Shown piece after piece: positions 39,442-42,370 of a DNA stretch of 52,561 nucleotides (position 1 is the first letter of the stretch; each line of letters starts with the position of its first letter). This DNA is from Candidatus Woesearchaeota archaeon (lineage in GTDB: Archaea; Nanobdellota; Nanobdellia; Woesearchaeales; JAFCFN01). A model generated the notes under the pieces. That model was not told where the DNA came from. It worked only from the letters and a program-made list of their open reading frames with translations, and ran no database searches. The stretch is taken from positions 1 to 52,561 of the forward strand of contig JAFCFN010000005.1 in NCBI GenBank assembly GCA_017608625.1, written 5' to 3'. The position numbers and the translations under genes were made by a program.

Positions 39442-39963
39442 ATGGCTATAGAGAAAAGGCCTTTTGCTGAGGAAGTGCCTGTTAGTTCTATTGTTTTGAG
39501 ATGGGAAGGAATATTTGATTTTGATGGCATGTATAAGTATATGCAGAGTTGGTTAGCAAATAAAGAATATGAGTTTCATGAAGCAGCATATAAGCATAAA
39601 CCAGCAGAATTAGGTAAAGAAATAGAGCTAGAGTGGTTTGCTGAAAAAAAGATAAATGGTTATGCTATGAATAGAATTGATGTAGAAATGCATTTATGGG
39701 ATGTTAATGAGGTAGAAGTAGAAGGTAAAAAATTAACTCGGGCAAGAATGTGGATAAAGTTATCTGCTACCTTAATTTTAGACTATGAACAAAAATGGGG
39801 GAAAAATGCATTTTATTCTGCTTTAAGAAACTTTTTTCATAAACATATAATAAAAAAACAGATAGATTTTGTGTGGGCAGAGAGTTTAAGACTTGAGTTA
39901 AACAAATTTTTAGAAGACATCAAAGCTTATTTAGAATCCATGGCAAGAGGAAAAGTTTATTAA
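39442..39963 (+). CDS. Hypothetical protein, paralog of 40068-40613
   Basis: Shared pattern: (F/L)FD..(E/M)(F/Y)YK(M/Y)...W...K.Y, LDYE(Q/H)(K/R)W, FF.K.I.K..ID. Confidence 0.65.
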   Translation: MAIEKRPFAEEVPVSSIVLRWEGIFDFDGMYKYMQSWLANKEYEFHEAAYKHKPAELGKEIELEWFAEKKINGYAMNRIDVEMHLWDVNEVEVEGKKLTRARMWIKLSATLILDYEQKWGKNAFYSALRNFFHKHIIKKQIDFVWAESLRLELNKFLEDIKAYLESMARGKVY

Positions 39964-39990
39964 AAAGTTATTGTTTTTATTTAAAATAAA

Positions 39991-40067
39991 GGAGGTAAAG
40001 GTTAACAGACCTATCGAGCGAGCAAAGCGAGTGAAGATAGGTCAAAGCGTTAACCGATTTTGCGGTT
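39991..40067 (+). promoter_or_regulatory. SD - structured leader element (copy C) - start codon
   Basis: SD GGAGGT 39991-39996; GGTTAAC 40000-40006/GTTAACC 40049-40055; GACCTATC 40008-40015/GATAGGTC 40036-40043; AACCG 40052-40056/CGGTT 40063-40067; ATG 40068. Confidence 0.65.
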
Positions 40068-40613
40068 ATGGCTGAACGAAAATTAGTTGTTGAGAACATA
40101 AGTATAAGTTACTCTGGATTGTTTGATGTTAAAGAGTTCTATAAAATGATTGATGACTGGTTTAAAGCTAAGGGATATGATAAAGTTGTAGTGAAACATA
40201 AAGAATATAGCACTGAAACAGGAAAAAATATTGAGATTCTTCTAGCACCGCATAAAAATGTAACTGACTATATTAGGAATTTAATTAAAGTATGGATTGG
40301 GATGAGCAATATCAAAGAAGTAGAAGTTAAAAGAGATAAAACAAGATTTAAAATAAATAAAGGAGATGTCATTGTTGTTTTGGACGGCTATCTGGAATTA
40401 GATTATGAACATAGATGGGAGCAAAAGCCATTATTCTTTTTCTTAAGAGTTTTGATTGACAAGTTCATTCATAAATCAGAAATTGATAAATACGGAGAAG
40501 AATTAATAGAAGAGATTAATGAGTTTCATAATGAGATTAGATCGTTTTTAGGATTGCATAAATATGGGCCTGCAATAAGGGCAAAAACACCTGAGGTACC
40601 TGGTTTTAGATAA
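40068..40613 (+). CDS. Hypothetical protein, paralog of 39442-39963
   Basis: See paralog; ATG directly abuts the structured leader. Confidence 0.7.
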   Translation: MAERKLVVENISISYSGLFDVKEFYKMIDDWFKAKGYDKVVVKHKEYSTETGKNIEILLAPHKNVTDYIRNLIKVWIGMSNIKEVEVKRDKTRFKINKGDVIVVLDGYLELDYEHRWEQKPLFFFLRVLIDKFIHKSEIDKYGEELIEEINEFHNEIRSFLGLHKYGPAIRAKTPEVPGFR

Positions 40614-40662
40614 AATAAAAGGATAAAACTTATATAGTGTTTTACTTTTTCTTTAGGGTATT

Positions 40663-40861
40663 GCGAGGGTAGCAAAGCCTGGTCACATCTGCAAAGATGC
40701 CAGAGAAATGCGCAGGACTTAAGAGGGGCACCTCAGCTTTGGTTGGGGATTTAAGTTATCCTGTCCCTTAGTGGGTCCGTGGGTTCAAAAACAGCGTAAT
40801 AAAATAAATGCGCTGTACAACAGCTAACAGAAAGCTGTTTTTGAAACTCCCACCCCTCGCA
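40663..40861 (+). tRNA. tRNA-Leu(TAA) with three introns
   Basis: Acceptor GCGAGGG/CCCTCGC; introns 40685-40705 (D-loop), 40724-40757 (37/38), 40790-40847 (T-loop 59/60), each flanked by a 4-bp BHB helix with two 3-nt bulges; spliced length 86 nt; anticodon TAA 40720-40722. Confidence 0.92.
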
Positions 40862-40867
40862 TATTTT

Positions 40868-40994
40868 GCCTCGGTAGCTCAGCTGGTTAGAGCACTACCT
40901 TGGTATAAGGATTAAGAATTTCAAAAAAGGTAGAGGTCGCGAGTTCAACTTGTTGCAAGTTCAAGCTTGCAGCTTGAAAGTCTCGCCCGAGGCT
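40868..40994 (+). tRNA. tRNA-Thr(GGT) with two introns
   Basis: Acceptor GCCTCGG/CCGAGGC; anticodon-loop intron about 40906-40927, T-loop intron 40950-40980; spliced length 74 nt; anticodon GGT 40902-40904. Confidence 0.92.
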
Positions 40995-41299: not shown

Positions 41300-42201
41300 A
41301 AAAAAATGTAATTCTAATTGGATATTGTAAAGACAAACCTGGAATAGCTAAAGCAATTACTGATTTCATTTACAATAATGGCGGAAATATTGAAAATGAC
41401 CAAACTAAAATTGTCTCTGATTATGAATTTATCAACAAAAAACCATATAAAAAAGATGATTATTTTGTATTCAGATATGAATGGAATTTAGATGATGGTT
41501 CTATTTCAGAGTCAAAACTCATTGATAAATTTAAAGAGATATCAGATTATTTTGAGATGGAGTGGAAACTAAATTTCTCAGACAAAATTTATAATCTTGC
41601 AATATTTGTTACAAAGGAGCAGCATTGTTTAAAAGATATCCTTTCAAGAAAATATCAGGGGAAACTAAGAATAAATGTGCCTCTTATCATAAGCAATCAT
41701 CCATCATCCAAGTTTATTGATTTAGAGCATATTGTAAATACATATGGAGGAGAATATTATGTTTTTCCAATAACTAATGAAAACAAAATAAAACAGGAAC
41801 AAAAGGAAGTTGAGCTATTAAAAGAAAAGAATATAGATTTAATAATACTTGCTAAGTATAGGCAAATCTTGTCTGAAAGGTTCATAAATGAATTCCCAAA
41901 TAAAATAATAAATGTTCATGATTCAAGACTGCCCCGCTATCCTGGAAGTTATGCTTATATTCAAGCATATAGTAAAGGCGCAAAGAGTATTGGAGCAACA
42001 ACTCACTTTATTACACCTGAACTTGATAAAGGTCCAATAATTGATGAAGAGTGGGAGAAGATAACTGGTTTAGAAAGCTATGAAGATATTGTAAAAAAAG
42101 GGCATGATATGGAATGCTTAGTTCTTGCTAGAACAATAGATAATTATATTAATGATAAGATTTTATTACTCAACAACAAAAGAGCAATTTTATTCAAATA
42201 G
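41296..42201 (+). CDS. purU: Formyltetrahydrofolate deformylase-like protein (ACT + formyltransferase domain)
   Basis: CKDKPGIAKAITDFIYNNGGNI (ACT), IISNHPSS, LAKYRQILSERFINEFPNKIINVHDSRLPRYPG, GATTHFITPELDKGPII. Confidence 0.9.
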   Translation: MKKNVILIGYCKDKPGIAKAITDFIYNNGGNIENDQTKIVSDYEFINKKPYKKDDYFVFRYEWNLDDGSISESKLIDKFKEISDYFEMEWKLNFSDKIYNLAIFVTKEQHCLKDILSRKYQGKLRINVPLIISNHPSSKFIDLEHIVNTYGGEYYVFPITNENKIKQEQKEVELLKEKNIDLIILAKYRQILSERFINEFPNKIINVHDSRLPRYPGSYAYIQAYSKGAKSIGATTHFITPELDKGPIIDEEWEKITGLESYEDIVKKGHDMECLVLARTIDNYINDKILLLNNKRAILFK

Positions 42202-42370
42202 GGCCCATGGTCTAGTGACTTTGCAAACCTGAGTTTGCTTGCTAGATGCTATGACGTCGCCTTGACGTAACCCTTTTATTTAATAAACCGATAAAAGGGT
42301 TTCATAATGGCGGAGGTCCTGGGTTCGATTTGTTGCAAATGTTTGCAACTTGAAAATCCCAGTGGGCCCA
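42201..42370 (+). tRNA. tRNA-Val(GAC) with three introns
   Basis: Acceptor GGGCCCA/TGGGCCC; introns 42218-42247 (D-loop), about 42268-42307 (anticodon loop), 42330-42356 (T-loop); spliced 73 nt; anticodon GAC 42264-42266. Confidence 0.92.

Follow-up and report, generated by a model that had tools for sequence, protein, structure and literature searches.

The window, which is the whole 52,561-nt stretch of DNA analysed here, contains a real tRNA-Leu(UAA) gene interrupted by three introns (positions 40663-40861, + strand). We consider it very probable that this is a functional single-copy gene, that its three EndA-type introns are removed with relaxed BHB motifs being tolerated, and that the T-loop intron was copied recently.

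Structure and conservation of the tRNA-Leu(UAA) gene

The exons of the gene total 86 nt and its introns 113 nt (21+34+58 nt), so that intron sequence exceeds exon sequence, as the earlier note had stated. All parts lie on the + strand. Exon 1 (40663..40684) carries the acceptor 5' strand and the 5' part of the D arm, and is followed by intron 1 in the D-loop (40685..40705, 21 nt). Exon 2 (40706..40723) comprises the 3' part of the D arm, the anticodon arm 5' strand and the anticodon TAA, and intron 2 (40724..40757, 34 nt) occupies the canonical 37/38 position. Exon 3 (40758..40789) contains the anticodon arm 3' strand, the variable arm and the 5' part of the T arm. It is separated by intron 3 in the T-loop (59/60; 40790..40847, 58 nt) from exon 4 (40848..40861), which supplies the T stem 3' strand, the acceptor 3' strand and the discriminator A.

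ARAGORN called the spliced 86-mer as tRNA-Leu(taa), with the cloverleaf layout of an archaeal tRNA-Leu(UAA): acceptor, D, anticodon, long variable and T arms together with TAA, every stem being intact. It called no tRNA in the unspliced 199-mer, in the forms keeping the anticodon (AC) intron alone or the T-loop intron alone, or in the 52,561-nt window, where Rfam also gave none above cut-off. The intron boundaries were unique except for shifts at repeated bases, among which the BHB rule selected the register proposed in the earlier note.

We then compared the locus with that of a same-genus species, G001 (JAFCEI010000048.1, Woesearchaeota Meg22_1012_Bin_87). There the same upstream gene (protein 75% identical) is followed by tRNA-Leu(UAA), tRNA-Thr and tRNA-Val, and the two tRNA-Leu(UAA) genes are one-for-one orthologs. 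In G001, the D-loop (GGTCAAATGC) and the T-loop (TTCGAATCC) are uninterrupted, while a 36-nt 37/38 intron is kept; an intron at 37/38 is present in many other relatives too. Splicing the window gene at the proposed sites yielded exactly the GGTCAAATGC of G001. Since the D and T sites are empty in the ortholog, the D- and T-loop introns are real insertions. The spliced product and the syntenic empty sites confirm the earlier claims of three introns at these coordinates and cut sites and of an archaeal-type 86-nt product. Upstream of the tRNA-Leu/tRNA-Thr pair, a conserved promoter region with a TATA-like ACTTATATAG (40618..40654, +) is identical to the G001 upstream region over 37 consecutive bases. 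Two tandem related proteins, about 30% identical to each other and of unassigned function, are encoded at 39442-40613, ahead of tRNA-Leu in this genome and also in several relatives; across the named genomes, the upstream gene adjoins tRNA-Leu at four loci only.

In other families of the order, the D site is likewise occupied by an intron in G047 and G015, and the T site in G025 and G014. The central-helix partners at these sites differ in sequence yet pair, and the D and T sites of tRNA-Leu(UAA) have been interrupted independently in these families. G025 and G048 also have three introns each in tRNA-Leu(UAA).

BHB motifs at the three sites

The central helices named in the earlier note (CTGG/CCAG at the D-loop, CTTA/TAAG at 37/38 and TTCA/TGAA at the T-loop) held up, each with 4 bp, all Watson-Crick. 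The introns thus have the features of archaeal BHB (EndA) introns, namely a 4-bp central helix with a predicted cut site behind the second nucleotide of either bulge. The further claim that all three are strict BHBs, in which 3-nt bulges have a helix on both the inner and the outer side, did not stand, as only the 37/38 site fits that rule. We scored the flanking helices of each intron after removing the remaining two. The D-loop site has an inner helix of 5 bp and an outer helix of 0 bp next to the 3' bulge, giving HBh'. At the T-loop site, the outer helix has 5 bp and the inner only 1, so that there is no proper inner helix, the AAA of the 5' 'bulge' lying opposite UUU in one continuous helix; the site is hBH. 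The 37/38 site has an outer helix of 6 bp and an inner helix of two G.U pairs only, and is a weak hBHBh'. Pairing probabilities agreed with the assigned motifs at the D and T sites, whereas the 37/38 BHB differs from the predicted minimum-energy fold, which takes a pairing between the intron and the variable arm.

Predicted pairing of the 37/38 intron with the variable arm

The intron hexamer in this predicted fold of the window pre-tRNA-Leu is GGGGCA (40725..40730, +), complementary to the exon hexamer TGTCCC (40762..40767, +). We assessed covariation in 86 pre-tRNA-Leu(UAA) sequences whose 37/38 intron measures 20 nt or more, from 38 families of Woesearchaeales. The exon hexamer, TGTNNC, runs from the end of the anticodon arm into the start of the variable arm, and G.U pairs were allowed in its complement. 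A perfect complement was held by 36 of the 86 introns. Exon permutation gave an expectation of 15.0 +- 2.6, with 0 of 1000 permutations reaching 36, and shuffled introns gave 6.6. With one sequence per family, 16.4 of 38 had a complement, against 7.3 +- 1.8 expected. The intron hexamer varied with the exon (CCC/GGG, TCC/GGA, CTC/GAG, CAC/GTG and CGC/GCG).

We judged a pseudoknot alongside the BHB sterically unlikely. With a link of only 3 nt, the helix could hardly coexist with the BHB, and an alternative fold of the precursor is therefore the simplest reading of the predicted GGGGCA/TGTCCC pairing. One guess at its role is that it masks the variable arm until splicing. The hexamer was also inspected by eye as an H/ACA or C/D guide and rejected, as it lacks box motifs and lies at an unsuitable distance from U39. 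In eukaryotic pre-tRNAs, the intron pairs with the anticodon. The present case shares with it the pairing of intron and exon in the precursor, the partner here being the variable arm of tRNA-Leu. We found no report of a covarying intron/variable-arm helix in the literature searched, and this helix would be a new element.

T-loop intron families

The T-loop intron of tRNA-Leu(UAA) belongs to an intron family, here called family A, whose copies in tRNA-Pro and tRNA-Ile of the same genome are 83% and 78% identical to it. The T-loop intron of tRNA-Gly(GCC) also aligns with the Leu copy, making four tRNAs of the genome in all. When aligned, the copies form two hairpins in which several pairs have changed on both sides. 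In tRNA-Gly(GCC), the T-loop TTCG faces intron CGAA, while the other copies have TTCA/TGAA, which is a compensatory change in the central helix. Family A was undetected in 98 relatives including the sister species, with only short matches at E>0.02, and none was found in viral contigs. Its presence in four tRNAs and its absence from these searches of relatives therefore indicate recent copying. Resemblance between introns that share one site across several tRNAs is the mark of a transposed tRNA intron family of the Thermoproteales type, and family A fits this description.

A second T-loop family, CAACCGCRAAATC.GTTA...TATGAAAG, occurs in tRNA-Cys and tRNA-Lys(CUU), with a shorter likely member in tRNA-Gln(CUG) (L049, L061 and L064). 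In the sister species, two adjacent tRNAs carry a shorter form (G001:C64:3671 and 3784). Across 60 genomes of the order, the pattern GGTTCRA..TGAANNTCC had 147 matches compared with 18 for the reversed control, and T-loop introns of such design therefore occur across the order. The T-loop site may be an easy target for copied introns, as an intron ending in UGAA can pair with any UUCR T-loop.

Introns in other tRNA genes of the genome

The genome is a draft of 646 kb, 98.7% complete, in 14 contigs. Next to tRNA-Leu(UAA) lies tRNA-Thr(GGU) (40868..40994, +), with two introns, in the anticodon loop (40906-40927) and the T-loop (40950-40980), supported by the solver and by ARAGORN on the spliced product; the tRNA-Thr of G001 also has a T-loop insertion. 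It is followed by tRNA-Val(GAC) (42201..42370, +), with three introns, in the D-loop (42218-42247), the anticodon loop (42268-42307) and the T-loop (42330-42356). With the D-loop intron spliced out, it reads GGTCTAGTGGCTATGACG there, just as the uninterrupted G001 gene does. This D-loop intron resembles those of tRNA-Val(UAC) (C3) and tRNA-Gly(CCC) (C10), and all three end close to a central helix of the form CTAG/CTAG.

An incomplete set of 30 tRNA genes was located through Rfam and pattern hits, and nearly all of the genes looked at are interrupted in a similar way. These contain about 51 introns (~1.7 per gene; 18 at T-loop 59/60), a rough density, since the T-loop pattern search favours interrupted genes. 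The solver placed 44 introns in 26 of the 30 genes, its cuts outside Leu being chosen using the central helix, so that BHB counts there are not independent evidence. Reading by eye added three introns in tRNA-Pro (one in the acceptor stem), two in tRNA-Lys(UUU), and one each in tRNA-Gln(CUG) and tRNA-Gln(UUG). Seven genes have three introns: Leu(UAA), Val(GAC), Pro, Gly(GCC), Gly(CCC), Ser(GCU) and Ser(UGA). The placement of the anticodon intron in tRNA-Ser(GCU) is tentative, as the product given by the solver reads as Leu. An extra solver intron in tRNA-Leu(GAG) was dropped because it merely shortens the variable arm.

Several single genes had features of their own. In tRNA-Pro (contig C1:33950-34500, L040), an apparent intron lies inside the acceptor stem (GGG|ATCC..CATA|GCTG), with a BHB that uses the 5' leader TGCG, besides anticodon and T-loop introns. 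In tRNA-Lys(UUU) (contig C4:65740-65876, L044), an intron lies at the T-stem/T-loop border (53/54), with the central helix CGCG/CGCG. A tRNA-Ile (contig C3 60142-60222, L041) is predicted to carry the anticodon UAU (not CAU) after intron removal.

The Rfam tRNA model alone misses most tRNA genes of this genome. Ten tRNAs scored above the Rfam cut-off here, compared with a median of 23 (range 6-42) in 60 genomes of the order.

EndA and RtcB

The genome has one EndA gene (a 191-aa ORF) and one RtcB. The Tyr/His/Lys triad motifs of EndA (FRVYD, DHAKW and AHSTKK) are conserved, and are kept in the proteins of 28 relatives as well. As a single gene in the range of ~180-190 aa, it is of the alpha4 type. 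No second PF01974 match was found in the genome at E<=10, and PF01974 is a single gene in almost all of 40 genomes (this one and 39 relatives). The crenarchaeal specificity loop (CSL), an insert seen in S. tokodaii 2cv8, is absent from this EndA and from those of 28 relatives. With neither a second subunit gene nor the CSL insert, the enzyme does not belong to the crenarchaeal (alpha-beta)2 class. The gene count, taken alone, suggests a homotetramer.

The closest solved structures are the Nanoarchaeum alpha subunit (3iey_A, E=5e-35) and M. jannaschii EndA. A conserved C-terminal Trp of the woesearchaeal EndA (W188 in this protein) aligns with a Trp in ARMAN-2 and Nanoarchaeum, the M. jannaschii residue being Tyr. 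In ARMAN-2 EndA, the first bulged base is held by an Arg/Trp pair (PMC12397907). As a lead, the woesearchaeal Trp may act as a similar clamp.

Discussion

We propose that the tRNA-Leu(UAA) precursor is matured by removal of three archaeal (EndA-type) introns, EndA recognising the 4-bp central helix at each boundary, and that the exons are then joined, probably by RtcB. Excision in cells, EndA as the enzyme and the mechanism of intron copying are what we infer from these sequences. Since the D and T sites each lack one flanking helix, the enzyme would have to tolerate relaxed BHB motifs. The T-loop intron would have been gained recently by copying between tRNA genes, its target being portable, since the UUCR of the T-loop is universal and pairs with the UGAA at the 3' end of the intron.

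Two points count against this explanation. Narrow specificity is expected of an EndA that is encoded by one gene and lacks the specificity loop (PMC6379350, PMC4033280), yet two of the three motifs are relaxed; and the predicted minimum-energy fold favours the intron/variable-arm pairing over the 37/38 BHB. According to reviews, cutting by alpha4 and alpha'2 enzymes is confined to canonical BHBs, and enzymes of broad specificity are heteromeric or three-unit, mostly with an extra loop (PMC4033280, PMC6379350). It is to enzymes of this second kind, equipped with the extra loop, that non-canonical and multiple tRNA introns have been linked (PMC4033280, PMC6379350, PMC12397907). The substrate set found here suggests that the specificity of this EndA is broader than the narrow strict-BHB type.

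An enzyme of the (alpha-beta)2 or three-unit kind, as in Nanoarchaeum, Crenarchaeota or ARMAN, with its second subunit missed, would fit the association of broad specificity with heteromeric enzymes (PMC6379350) and the fact that, among solved structures, the best match is the catalytic subunit from Nanoarchaeum. We regard this as unlikely, given the single PF01974 gene here and in nearly all of the 39 relatives; moreover, the EndA itself matches the Nanoarchaeum beta subunit 3iey_B at 4.5e-18, and a similar beta subunit would therefore probably be detected. A smaller chance still attaches to removal of the D- and T-loop insertions by another route, such as RNase trimming or self-splicing, or to retention of the T-loop insertion in the mature tRNA. 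The 5' T-loop site does lie in a nearly continuous helix without a clear 3-nt bulge, but known introns of group I or II are far longer than these insertions of 21-58 nt, the central helix stays complementary through a compensatory change, and a 58-nt T-loop would abolish the D-loop/T-loop contact. Least probable of all, to a degree we consider nearly negligible, is that the gene is a decaying pseudogene or that the insertions are assembly or binning artefacts, with a normal tRNA-Leu(UAA) elsewhere. A draft genome might lack such a copy, but no second Leu(UAA) exon set was found elsewhere in it at E<=0.001. The intact stems after splicing, the promoter block shared with the sister species, the introns at the same positions in other families and the same kind of insertions in other tRNAs of the genome also argue against decay or artefact.

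A three-intron tRNA-Leu is ordinary in principle; what is unexpected is the lineage and the enzyme type, with processing as read from sequence. Multiple-intron tRNA genes, including three-intron ones, are known from Thermoproteales (Pyrobaculum and relatives; PMC4033280, PMC4090602, PMC8450103), and the published maximum is 71 introns in 46 tRNA genes of P. calidifontis (PMC8450103). Compared with this, the ~1.7 introns per gene in the 30 located genes is of similar order or above, subject to ascertainment bias. Unlike Thermoproteales, Woesearchaeota belong to a different branch (DPANN), with an EndA for which no CSL and no second subunit gene were found. In Caldiarchaeum subterraneum, tRNA-Leu(UAA) and tRNA-Thr(GGU) have several introns, in the D-, V- and T-arms (PMC3293823). 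The same two isoacceptors are thus multi-intron in a distant lineage, a likeness at the level of the isoacceptor. ARMAN and Nanoarchaeum, with epsilon2 or (alpha-beta)2 EndA, are likewise very small archaea with reduced genomes and relaxed BHB introns, whereas the woesearchaeal EndA is one 191-aa gene without fused units or ASL-type architecture.

We tentatively suggest, as a combined claim that is rather less than an even bet, that the many relaxed D- and T-loop tRNA introns of Woesearchaeales are cut by the single-gene EndA, without CSL/ASL or a beta subunit, and that the 37/38 intron of tRNA-Leu forms the alternative fold with the variable arm. If true, the action of a single-gene EndA on relaxed introns would contradict the published coupling of intron type to enzyme architecture, and the alternative precursor fold could, for example, prevent charging of the tRNA before splicing. 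A large DPANN order in which multi-intron tRNAs are rampant and EndA is a single, simple gene would put the architecture rule to a direct test, made feasible by the small size of the enzyme and the substrates listed here. Intron copying between tRNAs would extend beyond Thermoproteales. Standard finders overlook many of the tRNAs in genomes of this kind, with consequences for how their completeness and codon use are judged.
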